Below are positions 6,484 through 22,436 of a DNA stretch of 25,778 bases, piece after piece. The position numbers and the translations under genes were made by a program. The stretch spans positions 1 to 25,778 of the IMG/VR virus record IMGVR_UViG_3300035698_006192; one strand, written 5' to 3'. Under the pieces are notes generated by a model. That model did no database searches. It worked only from the letters and a program-made list of their open reading frames with translations, and had not been told where the DNA came from. This stretch comes from a virus. Position 1 is the stretch's first letter. Each line of letters opens with the position of its first letter.

Positions 6484-7659
6484 TTACGCGCCAGGCCAAG
6501 AGAATGGATCATTCCTGCCGAGTGGCTGGTGTAGGAGGTTCATCTGTGGTCGCCCTTGCTTCCACCATTCATCCCCCTGGTCATCTGGCCACGAGAATGG
6601 ATCATTCCTGCCGAGTGGCTGTTGTAGGAGGTTCATCTGTGGTCGCCCTTGCTTCCACCATTCATCCCCCTGGTCATCTGGCCACGAGAATGGATCATTC
6701 CTGCCGAGTGGCTGTTGCATACTGCCCTGCCGAGTGACTGCAAACGCATTCTTGAATTGCACCCCTGAGTTCCATCCGACGGATGGCATGTGTTGCGGCT
6801 GCTGGCCTGGGAACATACCTTCATACGGATTCGTAGTGGGTGAGTCCGTGCCGTAATACGGATTCGCGTATATCTGCTGCATGGCATCGTATGTATTCAA
6901 CGGTGCGACTTGTGGATTGTAGCTTGTAAGTAGGTTTGAATATCTGTTAGCCATTCCACCGAGTTGCCCGTAATACTGATTCATCATCGCGCCGCCAGCG
7001 CCAATTGCCTGTGACCGACCGCTCTGCTTCATCCGCTCGTTTTGCAAGTCAATGTCAAGCATCGCGCGATTAAGGTTACTCCCGCTACGGCTTCTCGCCG
7101 ACCAGTCTGCATCCTCAACCTGCTCTCCACGCAACCCATATCTTGATGCGCGTGACCTGATTGCTCCACGTCCACTTGCCAATTCAGCCGCTGCCTTCGC
7201 CTGCGCACGTCCCTGTAGCCTACGCATTACTGAATTGCTAAGTCCTGGGTTATCCATCCAGCTTGTGATATTCTTTCGTAGCGAAGAAAACATCGGGTCG
7301 TCTTTGTATTGATCCATCATACCCGAAAGCGTACTTTCAGCCCGTTGCTGCCTTCCCTCGATTTGCTGGTTAGCCTTGTTCTGTAACGCCGTGTGCTGGT
7401 CAATCGACATCTCAGCTAACGCCCTCGCGCTTTGCTGATTAAGCCTTGCATCGCTTTGGGCAGACTGTCGTTGAGTGACAACATCTCCCGCCGCTATTGA
7501 TCGTCCACGGATAGCGTTGCTAGTGCTTTGGTCTCCTGGCGTAAACGTTGGCGGCTGAAGTTGCGCGTATGGATTTGGTTGCTGTTGCTGGAAAGGCTGA
7601 CGATATTGGTCAAGCCCTGGTCCCTGAACCATCCAATTATTATCAGCAGGATAAGCCAT
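6484..7659 (-). CDS. Gln-rich virion protein with C-terminal tandem repeats, probable ejection protein (391 aa)
   Basis: The N-terminal 60 residues are rich in Pro and Gln (YRQPFQQQQPNPYAQ) and look unstructured. Residues 60-245 are helical and rich in Ala, Gln, Ser and Arg, with SRASRYGLRGEQVEDADW and a glycine stretch (AIGAGGAMMNQYYGQLGGM). From about residue 315 the tail holds two identical 31-residue repeats beginning QQPLGRNDPFSWPDD and a third truncated copy that ends the protein (HQPLGRNDPFSWPGA). The helical middle resembles small virion proteins encoded beside internal core proteins in podovirus-like phages. The ATG at 7659 has GGAGG six bases upstream. The repeats look recently duplicated, so C-terminal length may vary between relatives. 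No family name can be given. Confidence 0.65.
   Translation of the reverse strand: MAYPADNNWMVQGPGLDQYRQPFQQQQPNPYAQLQPPTFTPGDQSTSNAIRGRSIAAGDVVTQRQSAQSDARLNQQSARALAEMSIDQHTALQNKANQQIEGRQQRAESTLSGMMDQYKDDPMFSSLRKNITSWMDNPGLSNSVMRRLQGRAQAKAAAELASGRGAIRSRASRYGLRGEQVEDADWSARSRSGSNLNRAMLDIDLQNERMKQSGRSQAIGAGGAMMNQYYGQLGGMANRYSNLLTSYNPQVAPLNTYDAMQQIYANPYYGTDSPTTNPYEGMFPGQQPQHMPSVGWNSGVQFKNAFAVTRQGSMQQPLGRNDPFSWPDDQGDEWWKQGRPQMNLLQQPLGRNDPFSWPDDQGDEWWKQGRPQMNLLHQPLGRNDPFSWPGA
6492..6717. repeat. 93-bp tandem repeat, 2.4 copies, inside the 391-residue gene
   Basis: The motif GAGAATGGATCATTCCTGCC starts at 6500, 6593 and 6686, a period of exactly 93 bases (31 codons). The two full units in coding order encode identical residues. 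The partial third unit at the 3' end differs by Q to H and a silent Ser change, then runs into the stop. A short related fragment (CCTGCCGAGTGACTG, about 6725-6739) lies at the outer edge and could have seeded the duplication. Confidence 0.95.
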
Positions 7660-12091: not shown

Positions 12092-13861
12092 TTACAATTC
12101 GCTTACTTCTAAACCAAATTCAGCAAGCCTAAAAGTTTTTTCATCGTGTGGCTTCCCAATCGTCTCCCGCTTGCTCCTGCACCTGTATCTCGGCACACCG
12201 ATAACATACGTGCTCGTGGTGTCTGGGATTGTATCCCATGCTGATTCAAGCGTGAGCGCTGTAGCGGTATTGCTTTTTATTCTGCGCTCCTGTTCGAGAC
12301 CAGTTCCCGTTCTGATATATACGTTTACTCCTGCAAGACCGGCACCCCCGGTTACAAATGCCGCGTCAGAATCGGTTAGTGAGTTGGCGGTAGCCAATGT
12401 TACCGTACCGCTGTAATCATTGTTGTATGCGCCATCGTTATAAAAATCCCAATCAAAGTAAGAAAGTGCATAATTGTCTCCTGTTTTGTGAGTGAATTGC
12501 AAGTAGCGCTTTCCTGTGGTGGTAGATACCGCGTTGTGCATGTCAATTATTTCGAATGTCTTCCACGGTAAATCCCACTGCTTTGAAATGAGATCGTATA
12601 TTAGTAAGCGGTCGAGGTATGTGTTACTGTCATACGGGACCGCGAAGTGAATCTTATTGTCGTGATAACAACCAGAAATGTACGGTAAAAGGTCTTCCTT
12701 CATATCCCTATGTATCTCGCCGAGCGCGGGCTCACTGATATTGACTGCCGTGTTATTGGCGAAAACATAGAACCCGTCACCACCCCAGAAGAATAGTGCT
12801 CCATTGGCCACAACCATACTGCGGTAAGCAGTGCATCCTACCGGGCTGTTGGTGCGCCTTACGCCATACGGATTGTATTCGCTTGCCGTGCGGTAGATAC
12901 TGAATAGCGCGCGGTCCGTGGAGGCTATCAGGTCATTGCCTGTCTTCTTAAGGCCGGTAATGACGCCGCCTTCGTCACGCCCGATGTTGAAGCTGTTTAT
13001 CGACGCGAAGTATTCCGGCTCGTTCTGTTCAGAGAATATTATTTCATGAACCTGCCCGGTGATGGTGTACTCTACGGAAGAAGGATCGGCTGCACGCCAT
13101 GCTGGGCGGACGTAATTACGGTCAATTTTGAATCTCCGTGGCGTATAAACAGTCTCGATTTCATATGACGTGTTTTCGTTGTGTAGCGTGATCCATTTTC
13201 CCACGTAATTTGAATTGATTGACATGGCGCTATTGCCGGTGATTATATCGCTTGCAGAAGTAGCGCTTGCCAAGCCGCCGGTATAGGCCAACTCCCCGGC
13301 GCAGAAAATCCTGTCGTCAAAAACCTCACAGAAGCGCTTTAATGCTGGCTTTCTGTATCTGAATGCACCGGCAAGTGTGCCAGCGAAGTCAGTCGTAAGG
13401 TATCCGGGCTCAAGGTAATCCGTTAAATCCCAATTGTCTGTGTGACTATTGATCGTTAGGGTTGTAGTTCCGTTAGCCACCGCGCCCACGTAGTAAAATG
13501 GGCTGTCTTCCCCCGGCGTGGTCATGTAAATATATACGTGGCTAACCTGTGTTTCGCTGCTTGATGGAATGGCAGTTAGATTTATCTTGTAATTGGCACC
13601 CGAGAGTGTGACGCTTACAGGACCGTCACTTCTCGGATTGCCAAGTGTCCCCCATTTATTCCTGAATACCGTGTGGAATTTATATACCCCAGCCGCCATT
13701 GTGCCGCTCGATGCACCTGCCGCGGTCGGGTTTTCGCCAGGTACAGGAACACCCCATATATATGAGGAAATCCCTATGTCCTTTATCATCTTGCGCCCGT
13801 TCGTTCGATATCTCACGCCCTCGAACAGAACTGCGCTTGGTAAGTTATCGTAAACGCTCAT
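12092..13861 (-). CDS. Tail nozzle-like protein, FN3 plus beta-propeller core (589 aa)
   Basis: Residues 9-30 (SAVLFEGVRYRTNGRKMIKD) match the strand-NG-strand element that precedes the FN3-like domain in P22 gp10-like nozzle/stabilisation proteins. Residues 40-150 are that FN3-like domain (AAGVYKFHTVFRNKWGTLGN, VSVTLSGANYKINLTAIPSS, VSHVYIYMT). Residues 175-470 carry propeller blade motifs: FCEVFDDRIFCAGE, ITGLKKTGNDLIASTDRALF, SPVGCTAYRSMVVANGALFF, WGGDGFYVF, YISGCYHDNKIHFAVPYD, LLIYDLISKQWDL. The end (IGKPHDEKTFRLAEFGLEV) matches the strand after the propeller. What is missing is the usual N-terminal RPG-containing segment, which is found on the 518-residue protein two genes upstream. The protein probably forms the tail channel. 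A weak AGGG lies seven bases before the ATG. Confidence 0.78.
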   Translation of the reverse strand: MSVYDNLPSAVLFEGVRYRTNGRKMIKDIGISSYIWGVPVPGENPTAAGASSGTMAAGVYKFHTVFRNKWGTLGNPRSDGPVSVTLSGANYKINLTAIPSSSETQVSHVYIYMTTPGEDSPFYYVGAVANGTTTLTINSHTDNWDLTDYLEPGYLTTDFAGTLAGAFRYRKPALKRFCEVFDDRIFCAGELAYTGGLASATSASDIITGNSAMSINSNYVGKWITLHNENTSYEIETVYTPRRFKIDRNYVRPAWRAADPSSVEYTITGQVHEIIFSEQNEPEYFASINSFNIGRDEGGVITGLKKTGNDLIASTDRALFSIYRTASEYNPYGVRRTNSPVGCTAYRSMVVANGALFFWGGDGFYVFANNTAVNISEPALGEIHRDMKEDLLPYISGCYHDNKIHFAVPYDSNTYLDRLLIYDLISKQWDLPWKTFEIIDMHNAVSTTTGKRYLQFTHKTGDNYALSYFDWDFYNDGAYNNDYSGTVTLATANSLTDSDAAFVTGGAGLAGVNVYIRTGTGLEQERRIKSNTATALTLESAWDTIPDTTSTYVIGVPRYRCRSKRETIGKPHDEKTFRLAEFGLEVSEL

Positions 13862-15102: not shown

Positions 15103-16658
15103 TATAGTATCCTCGCATCAACATACATAACACCGACACCACTGTTACTGTCTTGGCTTTCGGTTTCAAGGTTCTCGTCAACTTTGTACTTCGCCATCCT
15201 AACCTTTACGCTTGCCTGCCCGGTATCGTCTGCCAGGAAGTAAGCTGCCGCAACTGTCGCACCGCCAACTGCGGTAGCTGCCGTTGCCGTTGCTGCGCTA
15301 TAGGTGGCATTACTGTCAATGCCAAGTGAATATCCGCTTAAATCTTCATCGTCCCATTCGGTCCCATATGTTCCAGACGGTTCCTTGAATGAGAACAATA
15401 AATGAACGTCCTGATTAAAGGTAGTGTCAGTGGCGCCGGCTGCGGTTTTTGCCGTCAGCGTAAGATAGAACTCCCACACAAGATACTCAACCCCAGATAT
15501 GGTTTCGACGGAAGTCCAATCTATTGAAGTAATCCCCGTCCCGGCTGCATTTACAACCTCAACGAGAATCTGATACCCTGCGACATCCCACGTTCGTTCA
15601 GCGGTAAGGCCGCTCATCTCCTGCATTGCCAGCAATGTAATTGTGCCTTCATCGACATTGCTGTCGAGAGCAACCTGCAAGACATCAGAAGCGCTACTCG
15701 CGGCTGAAAATGTCACCGTGGCAATTGGGAACTCCGAAGACAATGCCGCCCCGTCTTCGTCCATGAGCGTTGCGTTACCGGAAATCTGTGTGACGTAAAC
15801 ATCGTTGGTTGTGTTTGTAAGGACGTACGCCCCGGTAGTGCTTTTGACATAGTTTTCCACCGTAAGGGTGAAGTTTTCCCCCTCCGGGAGAGTTGCCAAG
15901 TCTGGCGCGGTTATCACTATTCGTCCATCAAGCGGCTCTGTCGGCGCTGTCTCATCCCTGTTTTCAATTGATATTGGTGCGCTATCGAAATAAACTATAC
16001 TGTCACTTCCGGTTCCCCTTACAACCGCGTTGAAGTTCACGTCCCTGCTTGAGTATGCAGATAAATCAGACGTGCCGTAAGCATGCGATGTACTTTTGCC
16101 AGCGGCAGTACTATCAGCCGAAAACGCACCACCGAGAATGTAATCCCATTCGTAAGTCGCGATTGTAACGCCTGTCGGAAGATCCTCCGTGATGGTGAAA
16201 GCAACCGTCATGTCCGTACCGGTAACGACAAAGCCGGAATTCGGTACTGCGTGAAGCTCAATAGCACCAACCGTTATCGGATCATCGTCGTCGTGTTCTT
16301 CCTCTTCGTCGTCACGAGTCGAAAATGTCGTGGTTCCAGGGTCGTCCTCAAGGGGATCGCCAGTCTGTGGATTTTCTGTCGCCGGCAGGGTAGTCGGCGG
16401 CGTGGTTATGCCGTCAATGTTACCACTACCAGGCAAAATCACAATAGGCTGCGGATATACCAGGCCGTAACCGTCATCATCTACAGCCCAATGGTTGTGT
16501 CCCGGGCGAGTCGTCACAACCCCCGGCTTCTCAGTACAGACAAGATTTTCACCATCAACGAAATATCCGTCAGGAATATCCTCCTCATCGGCATATTGGT
16601 TTATACCAATGAATCGCGACATGTGGATATGTTGATAGTTTTCAGCGTTCCTTGTCAT
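15102..16658 (-). CDS. Nozzle N-terminal signature joined to Ig/PKD-like domains (518 aa)
   Basis: Residues 16-53 (FIGINQYADEEDIPDGYFVD, then GENLVCTEKPGVVTTRPG) closely follow the N-terminal signature of P22 gp10-like nozzle/stabilisation proteins: G-I-N, acidic-proline turn, x-x-N, a glycine, and R-P-G. Instead of a propeller it continues into a Pro/Thr linker (GITTPPTTLPATENPQTGDP), an acidic run (RDDEEEEHDDDDP, about 134-146), and three beta domains of Ig/PKD type (IELHAVPNSGFVVTGTDMTV; GRIVITAPDLATLPEGENFT; TWDVAGYQILVEVVNAAG). The C-terminus is Ala-rich, then KVRMAKYKVDE. The start shares ATGA with the adaptor stop. Likely a tail protein docked to the adaptor by its N-terminus, with decorative domains projecting outward. 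The exact role is inferred. Confidence 0.65.
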   Translation of the reverse strand: MTRNAENYQHIHMSRFIGINQYADEEDIPDGYFVDGENLVCTEKPGVVTTRPGHNHWAVDDDGYGLVYPQPIVILPGSGNIDGITTPPTTLPATENPQTGDPLEDDPGTTTFSTRDDEEEEHDDDDPITVGAIELHAVPNSGFVVTGTDMTVAFTITEDLPTGVTIATYEWDYILGGAFSADSTAAGKSTSHAYGTSDLSAYSSRDVNFNAVVRGTGSDSIVYFDSAPISIENRDETAPTEPLDGRIVITAPDLATLPEGENFTLTVENYVKSTTGAYVLTNTTNDVYVTQISGNATLMDEDGAALSSEFPIATVTFSAASSASDVLQVALDSNVDEGTITLLAMQEMSGLTAERTWDVAGYQILVEVVNAAGTGITSIDWTSVETISGVEYLVWEFYLTLTAKTAAGATDTTFNQDVHLLFSFKEPSGTYGTEWDDEDLSGYSLGIDSNATYSAATATAATAVGGATVAAAYFLADDTGQASVKVRMAKYKVDENLETESQDSNSGVGVMYVDARIL

Positions 16659-17308
16659 GCGGTCGCGTATATCCTCCGGGTCAATGTTTCGTTACTCCGC
16701 GAGTGGTCGGCTTCCATGCTGGCGTATATCTCCATGGCCTCCATCTTGCATCTGTCTATCAAACTCGCCCGTTCCTCATCCGAAAGTAATAGCATCTGGA
16801 GCGCCCTCCAATAGAGGTAGTCATGGAATTCCTCCGGAAGATCTGGTTCATCTGTGTCGGAAGACAATGCCGTTGGTAGACGATAATACCAGAGAACGTA
16901 ATCGCCAGCAGAGAGTAAATATGGCATCCAGAGTATTGTTTTCACTCCGGTCGTGCTGCTGATACCACCCATGGCATATGTCTGGCTGCTACCATCCCTG
17001 ATATTCGTCGGGTAGTGGAGTTGGCGGGTTGGTGTTTTAGGCTCTACCGGGTCGTAATCAGAGTCGAGAATACATTCAATATGCCCCATTGCAGAAGGCA
17101 GGTTTGAAGTCTCCGTAGATGCCGTTAGGCTCGCCAGAGTGGTCGTGTCTTCTGTCAGCCACCAATACCACTTGCGCTTGCGTGAAAGCCCCCTGAGCGC
17201 ATCATTGAGCGCGTCAAGGGCATGTCCCTGTACGTCTGTAGTTGGGACAGCACCGTATAGTCCGAGGCTTCTTTCAAGACGTGTTCTCAACTCTGACAAG
17301 GTAGACAT
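16655..17308 (-). CDS. Head-tail adaptor protein (217 aa)
   Basis: The protein opens with a helix (MSTLSELRTRLERSLGLYG) and then DALNDALRGLSRKRKWYWWL, the helix-plus-W-rich pattern seen in gp4/gp11-type adaptors of podovirus-like phages. A mid-protein beta region includes DYVLWYYRLPTALSSDTDEP followed by DLPEEFHDYLYWRALQMLL, again typical of this family, in which a YxxxPxxL strand precedes a P-E-x-x-H helix. It would form the ring below the portal and above the nozzle. Length (217) is normal for the family. Its position, after small conserved virion genes and before the nozzle-like genes, agrees. The ATG at 17308 is three bases after the previous stop, and the stop overlaps the next start (ATGA). 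Confidence 0.78.
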   Translation of the reverse strand: MSTLSELRTRLERSLGLYGAVPTTDVQGHALDALNDALRGLSRKRKWYWWLTEDTTTLASLTASTETSNLPSAMGHIECILDSDYDPVEPKTPTRQLHYPTNIRDGSSQTYAMGGISSTTGVKTILWMPYLLSAGDYVLWYYRLPTALSSDTDEPDLPEEFHDYLYWRALQMLLLSDEERASLIDRCKMEAMEIYASMEADHSRSNETLTRRIYATA

Positions 17309-17311
17309 ATA

Positions 17312-17716
17312 TTATTCTCCGGAAATCGTCTGCGAAAGCTGCTCTTTCGTGATACCATGACGCTTCATGAGCGCTTTGAGATCGTCAGCGGGTGTCATTT
17401 TCTTCATAACACTAAATCCATCCGGGCCACCATGATTGAACATAATATGGCCCTTGAGGAATTCGATCTCTTCCTTGTTGTCGGTAGTGTACATGCCGTT
17501 CTTGACACGCAACCGGATTGGCGGGTTGTCCTGGTCGCTTATTGCACCAGCCTCAGTAAAGCGGGTTTTGGCAGAGCGCATTATAATTACCCGCTCTTTC
17601 GATGACCGGTTCCAGAAGAACGTTACCGACTCAGGATACTTGGGTTCGTCCTTCTTAATTTTGTCTTCTGCCACCTGGGTGGTCGCGCCACCCTTCTTGA
17701 TTTTTGCTTGCTTCAT
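17312..17716 (-). CDS. Small conserved virion-associated protein (134 aa)
   Basis: The first 30 residues are lysine-rich and probably disordered. Residues 30-100 form a small beta domain (SVTFFWNRSSKERVIIMRSA, then IRLRVKNGMYTTDNKEEIE and FLKGHIMF) whose K-N-G-x-Y-x-T-D-x-x-x-E-I-E-F-L pattern occurs in many short phage structural-region proteins of unknown role. A C-terminal helix (PADDLKALMKRHGITKEQLS) follows. I cannot name a function; such proteins usually lie among head and neck genes, as here. Its ATG overlaps the end of the radical SAM-glycosyltransferase gene by four bases (ATGA), so the modification module and the neck genes are one translation unit. Confidence 0.6.
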   Translation of the reverse strand: MKQAKIKKGGATTQVAEDKIKKDEPKYPESVTFFWNRSSKERVIIMRSAKTRFTEAGAISDQDNPPIRLRVKNGMYTTDNKEEIEFLKGHIMFNHGGPDGFSVMKKMTPADDLKALMKRHGITKEQLSQTISGE

Positions 17717-19638
17717 TTCTCAACTCCTTCAATCAATCCGTTTGCCCTCAAAAACTCGTCCGCGTAAACAACGTGTACGCGATCCATGTTTTCGGAAAAT
17801 GGTGTACGGTATGGGAAAATAGTTCCCATCTGTCCGATGTGTCCACAAATCAGTCCGGTATCTATGTGACACCTGATCCCAGCCTCATTCATTTTCCGGA
17901 AGAAGTATACGTCTTCGGTCAACCCATCCGGCAACTCAAACCACGGGCGCGGGACTCTCTCGAATACGCTGGTTTTGAAAAGACAGCATCCCAATCCAGT
18001 TGAATCGCAACTAATCAGCGTATTCCGCTGGTCTTTATTGGGCATGTACATACTGTGGTGATCCGTTTCGCCTTGTCGGAACATGATAAACGGTTCGTAA
18101 GGTGGGCCACGTCTGCAATACAACCCGCCGACGCAATCCAGGTCGTATTTTTCTGCCGCCCCGATCAGCCGCGTCATCGTATTTTTCGGGAAAATCATGT
18201 CGTCGTCCAGGAACATGAGATAGTCTGCGTTGCTGTCTAATGCCGCCTCGACGATTGACCTACGTGCGAAATGCACAAACATGCGTTTCGCCAGTGCGAA
18301 GTTATAGATGTGTGAGGTCGTGCGCATGGAGTGTGATACGATCTCGAAAAAGCTTGCGAAACACTCCATTGCCGGTCCACTCCCACTTGGCATCCCGATT
18401 TGGATTTTTAGTTGCCCTGGGCTACGAGATATCTGTGATGCGCTAACTTGGAGCTTTCTTCGCAGGTCGCTCCAAAGATCGATTATTTCACGCAGGTCTC
18501 CCGCTGTCATGCCATCTGGGATAAACGGTATATTTTCGTTATTAAAGCCTTTATACGCATCGCCAACCGTCTTCCCGTGTTTTCCTTCAGCGATTTCATC
18601 GTAAAACACAGTCCCAGGATATGGCTTAAACATCTGCACGAAAACGTTCCCGCCGATCTCTTCTGCCATCTGAAGCGTTGCCATGGCGGTCTTTTTCGTC
18701 TCTCCCGGAAGTCCGACAATGTATAGGGCGTCGAGCGCGATACCGCTTTTGATTATTTTTATGCATCCTTCCTTCGCTTTGTCTGGGGTTACGGTCTTTG
18801 CGCATAAGGTTAGAATGTTTTGGTCAGCGCTTTCAACCCCGACTGTAATTCCCACGCACCCAGACTTCTTCATGATCTGTAGAAGTTCTTCGTCCACAGT
18901 ATCAGCCCGGCTCTGACACGTCCACTTCCAGTCATGGGTTGCTATCGCTTCACACATTTCAATGCACCGCTTCCGGTTCATGGTGAAGCAGTCATCCCAT
19001 ATTCTGAAGTAGCTGAGTCCAGTCTGGTCCTCGAGCATTTCCATGTTTGATATCACGTCTTTAATATCGTATGGAGTCCAGCGGCTTCCGCAAGCAACAG
19101 GGCCACAGCAGAATTTGCATTTACCCACGCATCCCTCTGATGTCAGCATTCCAAGCGCTGGCTTATTCTGGATAGGCCAGCCAGTGAAAACCCCCGCCCA
19201 TCGCATATCAAACGGGACGTATTCTTCCAGCTTGGTGCCTTGGACCACCTTGTCTTTATGGAATCCCTCTGCGATTTCCCGCATAGCGTATTCGCCAGGC
19301 CCGACAACAACGTGATTGAATGGAAGGCTTTCTTGGACTGGTACTCCGAAAAGACCTTGCCCACCGACAACGGTTATCTTTTCTGGGTATTTATCCATAA
19401 TCTTCTTCGACAACTCTTCGGCTCTAAGAAGCTGCATTGTCGTGCATCCGAATCCGATAATATCAGCCCACTCAATTGCATCGTCCAATTGCTTCTCGGT
19501 GCATTGACTGTCGAGTTTCACGTCCACTTCATATCCGGAGTCAAGCAGGTATCTTGCTATTCTGAGGAGGCCAAGCGGCACCCACGAGCCGTTAATGAGT
19601 TGCTTACACTTCGGATCAAGCATCAGGATTTTTACCAT
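17713..19638 (-). CDS. B12-binding radical SAM enzyme fused to a GT-A glycosyltransferase (641 aa)
   Basis: Residues 1-130 form a cobalamin-binding-type Rossmann domain (MVKILMLDP, WVPLGLLRIARYLLDSGYEV, ADIIGFGCTT, KITVVGGQ, HVVVGPGEYAMREIAEG). Residues 160-395 are a radical SAM barrel with the 4Fe-4S motif C170-x3-C174-x2-C177 (TSEGCVGKCKFCC), GVESAD, and ALYIVGLPGET. Residues 410-641 are a GT-A glycosyltransferase: IQIGMPSG, ARRSIVEAALDSNADYLMFL, the metal-binding D478-D480, YCRRGPPYEPF, and TEDVYFFRKMNEAG with GHIG near the end. B12 radical SAM enzymes commonly methylate unreactive carbons; GT-A enzymes transfer sugars from nucleotide sugars. The ATG at 19638 is used; a TTG at 19686 is rejected because it lies deep in the upstream gene. 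The start overlaps the previous stop by seven bases. Cytoplasmic. The substrate is unknown. Confidence 0.82.
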   Translation of the reverse strand: MVKILMLDPKCKQLINGSWVPLGLLRIARYLLDSGYEVDVKLDSQCTEKQLDDAIEWADIIGFGCTTMQLLRAEELSKKIMDKYPEKITVVGGQGLFGVPVQESLPFNHVVVGPGEYAMREIAEGFHKDKVVQGTKLEEYVPFDMRWAGVFTGWPIQNKPALGMLTSEGCVGKCKFCCGPVACGSRWTPYDIKDVISNMEMLEDQTGLSYFRIWDDCFTMNRKRCIEMCEAIATHDWKWTCQSRADTVDEELLQIMKKSGCVGITVGVESADQNILTLCAKTVTPDKAKEGCIKIIKSGIALDALYIVGLPGETKKTAMATLQMAEEIGGNVFVQMFKPYPGTVFYDEIAEGKHGKTVGDAYKGFNNENIPFIPDGMTAGDLREIIDLWSDLRRKLQVSASQISRSPGQLKIQIGMPSGSGPAMECFASFFEIVSHSMRTTSHIYNFALAKRMFVHFARRSIVEAALDSNADYLMFLDDDMIFPKNTMTRLIGAAEKYDLDCVGGLYCRRGPPYEPFIMFRQGETDHHSMYMPNKDQRNTLISCDSTGLGCCLFKTSVFERVPRPWFELPDGLTEDVYFFRKMNEAGIRCHIDTGLICGHIGQMGTIFPYRTPFSENMDRVHVVYADEFLRANGLIEGVEK

Positions 19639-20444
19639 AATTCTCTTTGCTTTCCTGTTTGCGGGTTCACTATGACCCTGGGCCAATTCGTTATTGTTGT
19701 CTCGTCTGTGACGGTGTAGAGTTCCAGTTCCCCGGGGAGAAGCCCGAATAGTGGCTGGAAAATACTACAGTCGTGATCGAGCTTTACGATGTCCTGGAAT
19801 TCAGGACGCGCTGCAACTCTATGAGCGATTCCCTGCTCATCGTTTGAGAATCCCTTGGTGAAGTCTTTTGCCTCCTCGAACATGGCCTCGAAAAACTTAA
19901 TCAATTCGGCAGTTTCCCCGATAAATCCACCGCTATTCAGGTAGCGGAATCTGCCAGAATATACGCTCTCTTCGTATTCCTTTGTCGTTTCTTCGTCCGG
20001 CCAGTAATTAGTTTCAGCCGTATACAGGATACCCTTCCCGCCGTGTTTGGTTTTGAATATGTCAAGCGCCCTTACTGGTGATTCCAGCATGATCGCATCA
20101 TATGCGTCATTAGCCATCGCGTATTTCGTCTTGATTGATTTGAGAAGTGGAAGCGTAAGGAAAATTTGATGTCGGTGCCACTTCTCAACCCCCTTGCCTA
20201 ACTTGTAATATGGCGCTCCGAGATTGTCGAAGCTTTCCTCAAGCAGGCTTTTTTCCTCCTTTGTGTTCCACGTGAATACTGACAGTTCATCTTCGTATTT
20301 CGGTGCCTCGATTTCTTCGTCGCTTATTGTCTCGCGCCACTTGTTCACAATTGATTCCCATGCTGCTGTTTGGGCGTAGGAATTTGCATGGAGAATACAT
20401 GGCGCTGTGTTCGTGCATCTATTCCTTGCGATAAGACGACTCAT
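19632..20444 (-). CDS. PLOD-like glycosyltransferase (270 aa)
   Basis: The sequence follows the glycosyltransferase domain of procollagen lysyl hydroxylase/glucosyltransferases (PLOD/LH3) in order: VFTWNTKEE, LGKGVEKWHRHQI, the metal-binding NDAYDAIML (D113-x2-D116), GKGILYTAETNYWPDEETTK, RYLNSGGFIGETAE (167-180), NDEQGIAHRV, and LDHDCSIFQPLFG (222-234). The N-terminus also has PCILHANS (15-22). Viral relatives exist, for example in giant viruses. The enzyme would transfer a hexose from a nucleotide sugar, probably in the cytoplasm. The ATG at 20444 is chosen because GGGAG lies five bases upstream; a longer frame from 20588 would run back over the hairpin and into the preceding gene. Its stop overlaps the radical SAM start (TTATGGTAA), so the two enzymes are coupled. 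No collagen Gly-X-Y protein is visible in the window. Confidence 0.82.
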   Translation of the reverse strand: MSRLIARNRCTNTAPCILHANSYAQTAAWESIVNKWRETISDEEIEAPKYEDELSVFTWNTKEEKSLLEESFDNLGAPYYKLGKGVEKWHRHQIFLTLPLLKSIKTKYAMANDAYDAIMLESPVRALDIFKTKHGGKGILYTAETNYWPDEETTKEYEESVYSGRFRYLNSGGFIGETAELIKFFEAMFEEAKDFTKGFSNDEQGIAHRVAARPEFQDIVKLDHDCSIFQPLFGLLPGELELYTVTDETTITNWPRVIVNPQTGKQRELW

Positions 20445-20502: not shown

Positions 20503-21225
20503 TTACCCGTCGATAGCCTGACGAGCCCTATTGATACTCTTGCCGCGAACCTGTAAAGATCCACCGCCAGTCTGATGCACATGTTCACAGACCAAGCGAG
20601 CGCCGACTTGCGGATCAGCCGCAGTGATCGGAATTACATCGTCGGAAAAGAGCGTTTGTTCCGTGCTGGTCGCCGTGCCATCAATTGACTGAATCAACGT
20701 CTCAGTCGTTCCATGGCACTTGTAGACGTTCAGCGTGTTTGTAGCCGATGAGTGAGTCACGGTTCCCCTGACCTGGAAAACCTGATTCTCAATACCATCA
20801 TCGCTCACGTCTGAACTTCCGGATGTTGCAGCGAGGCTCGGTAAATCCTCTTCCTGAATGGATATGCTCTGGAATCCAGCAAGGGAAGTATCCCAGAGAA
20901 TAGTCATACCGTTTGTGCCAGTCGCATTCTGTGCAGAGGTCGTGGCAGTTGTAGTCGTCGCGTTAATACTGTTCGCGCGCCGACCGTCAACGATTACTGC
21001 CTCGATGTCATCAATTGCGTTCAGGTAATCTGCGACTTCGCCGAGCGTATTATAGGCAGTCGTGGTAAGATCAATTGTTGCAGATGAACCATCGATATTA
21101 TACGCAAGCGAAGTATTGGTCGCCAACGTAATAGTACCGGTAGTGTCAGCAGATGTGATCTTAACGCGAAGCGCTACGGCCTCATCATCTGCCCTTTTGA
21201 TTATCTTGCTATATTCGTGAAGCAT
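20503..21225 (-). CDS. Ser/Thr-rich head protein, possible decoration protein (240 aa)
   Basis: The product starts MLHEYSKIIKRADDEAVALR, then is beta-rich and unusually Thr/Ser/Ala-rich (TSADTTGTITLATNTSLA; NSINATTTTATTSAQNATG; ATSGSSDVSDDG), then a second beta part (QVFQVRGTVTHSSATNTL, TAADPQVGARLVCEHVHQTG) and a basic tail (GKSINRARQAIDG). I do not recognise a named family. Position directly after the major capsid gene, 14 bases away, is typical for decoration or head-fibre proteins. GGAG lies eight bases before the ATG. Its many Ser/Thr residues and its position just before two glycosyltransferase domains make it a candidate sugar acceptor, which is inference only. Confidence 0.6.
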   Translation of the reverse strand: MLHEYSKIIKRADDEAVALRVKITSADTTGTITLATNTSLAYNIDGSSATIDLTTTAYNTLGEVADYLNAIDDIEAVIVDGRRANSINATTTTATTSAQNATGTNGMTILWDTSLAGFQSISIQEEDLPSLAATSGSSDVSDDGIENQVFQVRGTVTHSSATNTLNVYKCHGTTETLIQSIDGTATSTEQTLFSDDVIPITAADPQVGARLVCEHVHQTGGGSLQVRGKSINRARQAIDG

Positions 21226-21239
21226 GGTAGATTCTCCTT

Positions 21240-22436
21240 TTAGGCAGACGCAACGTTGTAGATACGCGCGAAACGTTCAGCATGCCGAAATTGCAGGCCC
21301 TCTTCGACGAAGTACTCATATTTGATTCCATCTTCGCCATTGTCCTGTAGTCCATTGCCGCCAGGTCCAGTGTTGAGATGCGGAGTACTGCGCTGACCCG
21401 CAAGTCCACGTCTGGTGAGAGACGGAAGATCGACTACCCAAGCTTCATCATCAAGACCGAGTTCAGTGAATAGTTTGTGATGAAGAATTCTGAGGGTTCC
21501 ATCAGGCGTATCATAAACCTGAATCTTGAGACCCCATTTTGCGATATCCATGTCAAGCGTGAGGTACTTCTTAGCGAAGCCGTTAATGTACGCTGGTACA
21601 TTCCGACCGGTAATCAAGAGCTTTTCTGGGCCGGAAGCATAGTACATCGCGTCCTTCAAGAAGTCATCCCACTCGGCATGACTGAGCACAAGACCACTCA
21701 TATCGCGCTGGTGACATGAGCTACCCGCGGCATCCATGAAGTATTTCAGTCCACCGCTGGCAGTTACATTGGAGCTTGCCTGCAAGCCACGATTACCCCA
21801 AAGCAGCCCCATTTCGCGTTCACGATTGAACGCACGGAAATGGTCTGCATCAAGGAATTCAATTTCGCTCGGGCCAATCAGTTCGTTAGCGGCAACTCGC
21901 CCAGACACACCGAAGGGATTCCGGAAGGTCTGAATGTAGTTGTACTTCGCCGACGGCGTAGAACTGAGAAGCTGTCTTACGTCACTGAATTCATCCTGTG
22001 CATTGCCAAGCAGGTAAAGCGAATCACCCGCATCAATGGCGCTTGCACCTGACGTACTCGGCCAGTTGGAGGTAACGTCAACCGTGGAATCCATCGTGCC
22101 ACTGGTTGTAACGCGGAAATGCACGTCGGTTCCGGGATGATAAAGGATATCACCCAGACGAAGCCGGACATAATCCGTAGCCATCGTCATAGTTGCGGCG
22201 TCCGCTGTATACGCGGTACTCAAATCAACGGTATTCTGGTAATCGTCTCGCTCCATCCATTCAAACTTCCGGCCAGTACATGACTCAAAAGCGCCCATCA
22301 TATCAAGAATGACGGTAAATGGAGCGTTCATCTCGAGCTTACGGGTTATGTCAGGAGACATGTCGATGGGAATTCTGTTAGACAGAAGATCCCCGGTCTC
22401 GACGCTTCCCGCAACGAGAGTTGCGTCCATAGCCAT
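21240..22436 (-). CDS. Major capsid protein, SU10-like HK97 fold (398 aa)
   Basis: The length and motif order fit the SU10 major capsid family (HK97 fold). It opens MAMDATLVAGSVETGDLLSN with PFTVILDMMGAF (39-50), then a strand-rich middle with DILYHPGTDVHFRV (96-109) and YLLGNAQDEFSD (141-152). Residues 165-179 (YNYIQTFRNPFGVSG) are the family's characteristic NYxQxF-x-x-x-F-x-VSG segment, followed by EIEFLDADHFRAFNREREMG and LLWGNRG. The C-terminal part has LLITGRNVPAYINGFAKK, GLKIQVYDTPDGTLRIL and RILHHKLFTEL strands and ends FRHAERFARIYNVASA. The protein assembles the icosahedral shell on the scaffold encoded upstream. The ribosome binding site GGGAG lies eight bases before the ATG, next to a small hairpin. 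Confidence 0.85.
   Translation of the reverse strand: MAMDATLVAGSVETGDLLSNRIPIDMSPDITRKLEMNAPFTVILDMMGAFESCTGRKFEWMERDDYQNTVDLSTAYTADAATMTMATDYVRLRLGDILYHPGTDVHFRVTTSGTMDSTVDVTSNWPSTSGASAIDAGDSLYLLGNAQDEFSDVRQLLSSTPSAKYNYIQTFRNPFGVSGRVAANELIGPSEIEFLDADHFRAFNREREMGLLWGNRGLQASSNVTASGGLKYFMDAAGSSCHQRDMSGLVLSHAEWDDFLKDAMYYASGPEKLLITGRNVPAYINGFAKKYLTLDMDIAKWGLKIQVYDTPDGTLRILHHKLFTELGLDDEAWVVDLPSLTRRGLAGQRSTPHLNTGPGGNGLQDNGEDGIKYEYFVEEGLQFRHAERFARIYNVASA

Follow-up and report, generated by a model that had tools for sequence, protein, structure and literature searches.

The window analysed here, the whole of a 25,778-nucleotide virus fragment (25.8 kb; IMG/VR record IMGVR_UViG_3300035698_006192), encodes two putative sugar-modifying enzymes among the genes for its capsid, which raises the question of what such enzymes would act upon. 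The best reading of our results is that these genes form a swappable cassette for a virion glycan, in which a radical S-adenosylmethionine (SAM) enzyme would tailor the sugar. As the initial annotation had proposed, two open frames on the minus strand encode two glycosyltransferase (GT) domains and a cobalamin (B12)-binding radical-SAM domain, with all of the motifs that it quoted and with domain scores over the Pfam cut-offs:

19632..20444, minus strand: PLOD-type GT (GT1), 270 amino acids, from PF25342 (5e-17), profile matches to LH3 and mimivirus R699, and a permutation test
20382..20426, minus strand: N-terminal RNRCTNTAPCILHAN of GT1, predicted counterpart of the HxNG segment that canonical PLOD GTs have at the C-terminus; its H19 would correspond to LH3 His253, a Mn ligand
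20097..20108, minus strand: DxxD metal motif D113-A-Y-D116 of GT1, from alignment with LH3 Asp112-x-Tyr114-Asp115 (PMC6082870)
17713..19638, minus strand: fusion protein, 641 amino acids, with B12-binding, radical-SAM and GT-A parts, from Pfam and NCBIfam profile matches
19273..19593, minus strand: B12-binding domain, residues 16-122 (PF02310)
18667..19146, minus strand: radical-SAM core, residues 165-324, with CxxxCxxC at 19108-19131 (PF04055, 1e-15; AprD4 structure 6fd2, 7e-24)
17827..18408, minus strand: GT-A domain, residues 411-604, with DDD at 478-480 and ED at 575-576 (phrog_1574, 2e-12; structure model)

GT1 matches the Pfam family GT_PLOD (PF25342) with 62.4 bits against a cut-off of 27 (E 5e-17) and contains RYLNSGGFIG and LDHDCSIFQ besides its DxxD motif. 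Residues D113, Y115, D116 and W148 correspond to the DxxD with tyrosine and the Trp145 of LH3. Manganese is bound in LH3 by Asp112, Asp115 and His253 (PMC6082870), and the segment containing His253 aligns at the N-terminus (H19) of GT1 and of a related enzyme from contig L005, described below. Neither protein has an equivalent of HxNG at the C-terminus, which is the canonical position of the Mn-binding histidine. When the HxNG segments of the window and L005 enzymes were compared with those of LH3, R699 and the PLOD-type GT of an unrelated phage, G001, which shows the canonical order, none of 5000 shuffled sequences reached the score in five of the six comparisons, and 71 of 5000 did so in the sixth. 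These alignments suggest that GT1 is apparently a circularly permuted variant of the PLOD-type GT rather than a canonical member. An AlphaFold model of GT1 from a two-sequence alignment was too poor to judge the permutation (predicted local distance difference test, pLDDT, of 41) and its best Foldseek match, R699 (E 0.016), was too weak to use, so the argument for permutation is made from sequence comparison. If the fold is confirmed, GT1 would represent a new topology among collagen-modifying GTs. The glycosylation of hydroxylysine, which the initial annotation cited as known for PLOD enzymes, cannot be transferred to GT1, given both the apparent permutation and the searches for an oxygenase. 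Pfam detected no 2-oxoglutarate-Fe(II) lysyl hydroxylase domain in GT1 or in the fusion protein, and the oxygenase family PF13640 matched nothing in the window record or in four related records, possibly fragments, while three positive controls matched.

The N-terminal part of the fusion protein appears to belong to the B12-dependent radical-SAM superfamily, as it joins a B12-binding domain (PF02310, 42.1 bits, 9e-11, over the cut-off) to a radical-SAM core (PF04055, 58.4 bits, also over the cut-off) with CxxxCxxC at residues 170-177; GLPGE and LDDDM are present as well. The radical-SAM part matches the NCBIfam models for HpnJ, PhpK, AprD4 and BchE at similar strength and reaches none of the subfamily cut-offs (at best 122.9 bits versus 577.6, for HpnJ). 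Its best relative of solved structure is AprD4 (6fd2), a sugar diol-dehydratase; HpnJ and AprD4 use substrates that contain sugar and are not known to methylate them, and PhpK methylates phosphorus. The best matches therefore mix methylating and non-methylating enzymes, which does not sustain the methylated glycan proposed by the initial annotation and leaves methylation as one option for the radical chemistry.

The C-terminal domain of the fusion protein has the fold and motifs of a GT-A enzyme, and its DDD and ED motifs are kept in phage GT-A relatives; the Pfam family Glycos_transf_2 (GT2) recognised it barely over the cut-off (5e-5). Structure prediction, which failed for GT1, succeeded in part for the fusion protein, with pLDDT mostly about 90 over the GT region, from an alignment of mixed rows, and mostly high over residues 1-127. 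Radical-SAM rows were misplaced over the GT domain in this alignment, and the radical-SAM core of the model was unusable. Because the GT domain was modelled from these mixed rows, its similarity to A197 of Sulfolobus turreted icosahedral virus (STIV; Z 19.0, root-mean-square deviation 2.3, 172 residues aligned) and to the accessory domain of LH3 (Z 19.5, root-mean-square deviation 2.9, 186 residues aligned) is supporting evidence only. In this model, the GT-A domain is similar to COLGALT1, to STIV A197 and to the second, GT-like domain that LH3 and R699 possess. An assembly artefact behind the fusion gene is conceivable, but its frame is continuous and its GC content even throughout.

Both genes lie within a head module of the SU10 type, in which the portal (PF23899), capsid (PF17236) and adaptor (PF24175) families each match over their cut-offs. 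The neighbours of the two enzyme genes are as follows:

21240..22436, minus strand: SU10-type major capsid protein (PF17236, 3e-25), an alternative candidate acceptor
20503..21225, minus strand: conserved Thr/Ser-rich protein of 240 amino acids after the capsid gene, 32% identical to the L005 protein in the same place, a candidate virion acceptor
17312..17716, minus strand: small conserved protein of 134 amino acids that closes the slot, 41% identical over 73 amino acids to its L005 counterpart
16655..17308, minus strand: SU10-type adaptor/neck protein (PF24175, 4e-14)

The position between capsid and neck genes that the initial annotation had described was confirmed, except that the gene for the 240-amino-acid protein, for which profile searches including Pfam gave no family match within cut-off, separates the capsid gene from GT1. 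The overlaps that it had described on both sides are also present, as GT1 and the fusion gene share 7 bases, ATGGTAA (TTATGGTAA), and the fusion gene ends in an ATGA overlap with the gene starting at 17716. However, that ATGA enters the small 134-amino-acid gene, and the adaptor gene lies one gene further on. Elsewhere in the window, a minus-strand protein that runs off the record end contains tandem (N)SGxSGAAS repeats (2-523), and another (6484-7659, minus strand) has three near-identical copies of QPLGRNDPFSWPDDQGDEWWKQGRPQMNLL at its C-terminus, the last of them partial.

We examined what fills this slot in relatives. Single-protein scans with GT1 or the fusion protein found no relatives, and a scan of viral contigs with the capsid protein found L005, the closest capsid relative (41% identity). 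In L005, the gene order is capsid, 240-amino-acid protein, PLOD-type GT (39% identical to GT1), GT-A (32%), UDP-galactopyranose mutase (UGM; PF03275, 1e-45), small protein, and a gene in the place of the adaptor, a role assigned by position, as PF24175 gave no match. The mutase replaces the radical-SAM part, which has no match anywhere in this 44-kb contig, and the GT-A there stands alone. A weaker relative, L009, has a slot without any enzyme (capsid, small protein, adaptor), and that of L006 holds an MptE-like protein (PF01973). The differing contents in L005, L006 and L009 suggest that the slot takes exchangeable cassettes. In L111-L115, the SU10 capsid gene is followed by a long GT (541-627 amino acids) that matches the GT-A profile in all five (Pfam GT2 in L111-L114 but not L115) and then by a stand-alone B12 radical-SAM enzyme, both between the capsid and adaptor genes. 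In four of them, a nucleotide-sugar enzyme comes next, ahead of the adaptor: L112 has a GDP-mannose 4,6-dehydratase/epimerase, and L111, L113 and L114 have a UDP-glucose/GDP-mannose-type dehydrogenase. Among relatives, then, the radical-SAM part is exchanged for other sugar-tailoring enzymes within the same slot.

A similar cassette also occurs in an unrelated phage. G001 (176 kb), which was found through a GT-A scan independent of radical SAM, carries, flanked by capsid-like and connector-like genes, those for GTs, a B12 radical-SAM enzyme, a short-chain dehydrogenase/reductase (SDR) epimerase-like protein, GT-As and the canonical PLOD-type GT; the capsid, connector and SDR roles were read from sequence and gene order, and the cassette spans contig ends that do not overlap, so that a short piece may be missing. 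The motif that retrieved L111-L115 was partly derived from G001 and included neither the capsid slot nor the GT neighbours. An apparent intein in G001 (L106:11910-13952) interrupts the radical-SAM CxxxCxxC motif precisely at its first Cys (SRG|CLEAGTQ...VHN|CPYGCRFC), and a Vsr/HNH-like endonuclease is encoded inside it in a different reading frame (12766-13515). The recurrence in L005, L111-L115 and G001 bears out the claim that a glycan-modifying module is linked to capsid assembly genes. The proposed check on co-occurrence had the same outcome, as the genes stay in the capsid-side slot in those SU10-type relatives found that carry them. Linkage held among these relatives, with no unlinked carriers, but L009 lacks the cassette and other phages have their B12 radical-SAM genes elsewhere.

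When the radical-SAM part was run by tblastn against 50,697 annotated phage records, only Streptomyces phage SF3 (two records) came back, in which the gene adjoins kinase and NUDIX genes. IMG/VR yielded 19 B12 radical-SAM loci in a degenerate scan, five of them being the L111-L115 described above. One cluster, L110, contains GT2, radical SAM, GT, UGM, B12 radical SAM, Gfo/Idh/MocA and GT1 genes, and L109 contains two B12 radical-SAM genes with GT2s, a DegT aminotransferase and a methyltransferase. GT-A relatives are found downstream of capsid genes both among annotated phages and across most of the IMG/VR lineages that were sampled; in the podovirus L013 (MW202524.1), a GT-A lies between two methyltransferases, with more GT genes, among structural genes. 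A quick tree placed the L111-L115 and G001 radical-SAM enzymes in one clade with a long stem (SH-aLRT, an approximate likelihood-ratio test, 100), which indicates that these are not independent recruitments. The window enzyme fell outside this clade with unsupported neighbours, so the idea of the same enzyme everywhere was set aside. A separate recruitment of the window enzyme is likely, and capsid-side cassettes have probably gained an enzyme of this kind on at least two occasions.

For the acceptor, the order of transfer, the sugar and the radical reaction, we infer the following. The GT-A domain probably puts a first sugar on a virion protein, either the capsid protein or the adjoining 240-amino-acid protein, and onto this sugar the permuted PLOD-type GT would probably transfer another, as in LH3 and mimivirus R699. 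The B12 radical-SAM domain, on the same chain as the GT-A, would tailor one of these sugars by C-methylation, deoxygenation or ring rearrangement. LH3 adds glucose to a sugar already on protein. R699 glucosylates a sugar acceptor (PMC9546862), and this sugar-on-sugar transfer, together with the likeness of the GT-A to the second domain of both enzymes and its intact DDD and ED, suggests the order of GT-A and then PLOD. With a UGM, sugar dehydrogenase or epimerase in this slot in relatives, the simplest role to assign to the radical-SAM domain is sugar tailoring. We regard this capsid-side cassette, with its virion target, as an evenly balanced proposition.

Several observations weigh against it. 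The radical-SAM part is under all subfamily cut-offs, so that it might act on a peptide or on some other metabolite instead. The enzyme is unfused to a GT in G001 and L111-L115, and about six phage lineages, counted by eye (L116, L117, L118/119, L121-125, L126 and L127), carry a B12 radical-SAM gene without GT-A, UGM or PLOD neighbours by profile. Gene position need not reveal the target, and the virion glycan is a prediction from the genes. In L118 (5888-8816), split transketolase-like genes directly precede the B12 radical-SAM gene, which may indicate another sugar pathway.

The most serious rival is that the cassette alters host surface polysaccharide during infection, for superinfection exclusion or release, rather than the virion. 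Pelagimyophage GTs and nucleoside diphosphate (NDP)-sugar enzymes have been read in this way (PMC7029224), and L109 has GT and sugar genes near a primase/helicase-like gene. We nevertheless consider a host target unlikely, because at least six SU10-type phages have the cassette between capsid and adaptor genes and the unrelated G001 has it between genes that are capsid-like and connector-like, the slot showed no recognisable membrane flippase or polymerase, and genes expressed late would presumably come at a bad time for exclusion. It is less probable still that the acceptor protein is the substrate of the radical-SAM domain, which might C-methylate a residue, with the GTs acting separately. 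Peptide-modifying B12 radical-SAM families (ApyD and C-methyltransferases of ribosomally synthesised and post-translationally modified peptides) do also match the phage enzymes, and the missing lysyl hydroxylase-type oxygenase, already noted for the window and four related records, leaves no recognised maker of a hydroxylysine acceptor; on the other side, the domain shares a chain with a GT and stands in the place of the NDP-sugar enzymes of relatives, and the best matches of the window enzyme are HpnJ and AprD4, whose substrates contain sugar.

Hypermodification of phage DNA bases by the GT and radical-SAM enzymes was also considered and set aside as very improbable. Phage DNA glucosylation exists, and one G001 GT-A weakly matches the TET-associated GT family PF20691 (E 0.04, under the cut-off). 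However, no thymidylate-synthase-type gene was found in ten records, possibly fragments, and no TET/JBP match in a search without a matching positive control, and both the structural-block position and the PLOD-type partner speak against a DNA target. The virion-glycan cassette with a sugar-tailoring radical-SAM enzyme thus remains our preferred interpretation. More tentatively, and at somewhat lower confidence than for the window itself, phages may build virion glycans with B12 radical-SAM-altered sugars through a fused radical-SAM–GT and a permuted PLOD-type GT, with the capsid-adaptor slot as a recurrent landing site for cassettes across unrelated phages. Some phages may, in other words, cover their particles in sugars of unusual chemistry. 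The recurrent slot provides a set of phages for testing this idea, and GT genes between capsid and adaptor are a possible sequence marker of sugar-coated phages.

Few cases are known in which phage enzymes glycosylate the virion, and in none of those found is radical-SAM chemistry involved. Consistent with the initial annotation, which knew of no such phage system, we found no description of a B12 radical-SAM, GT and PLOD-type GT combination in the open-access literature, to which our search was limited. Mycobacteriophages Che8 and Rita are cited as encoding GTs and having a glycan on the major capsid protein (PMC11256854), but in Maravista, a close relative, the GT genes lie near the 3' end of the genome, unlike the capsid-side cassette, and that paper mentions no radical-SAM part. 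STIV A197 is an essential viral GT suspected of glycosylating the glycosylated STIV capsid protein B345 (PMC10551542). Like the fusion GT-A, to which it is a strong model match, it is a virus-encoded GT-A, although it belongs to an archaeal virus and has no extra domains. The collagen glucosyltransferases LH3/PLOD3 and R699 share with the cassette the PLOD GT motifs, and in both of them the PLOD GT is accompanied by another GT-like domain, which the fusion GT-A resembles. In contrast, the phage PLOD-type GT is apparently permuted and on a separate chain, with no hydroxylase domain or collagen recognised, and the fusion GT-A keeps DDD and ED, unlike the accessory domain of LH3, which is regarded as non-catalytic. 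Enzymes of the BchE, HpnJ, AprD4 and PhpK types, the best NCBIfam and PDB matches, likewise combine B12 binding with a CxxxCxxC radical-SAM core, whereas the fusion protein is far under their cut-offs and is joined to a GT-A. A similar architecture is found in Elusimicrobiota, in which two contigs from cellular metagenome-assembled genomes (L130:5911-8112 and L131:3120-5315) encode a B12 radical-SAM enzyme fused to a GT2 that, as read from sequence, is polyprenyl-phosphate-mannose-synthase-like rather than like the phage GT-A. These proteins have the identical domain order on one chain, with 28% identity in the radical-SAM part of L130, which indicates that the B12 radical-SAM–GT2 architecture has a cellular precedent.
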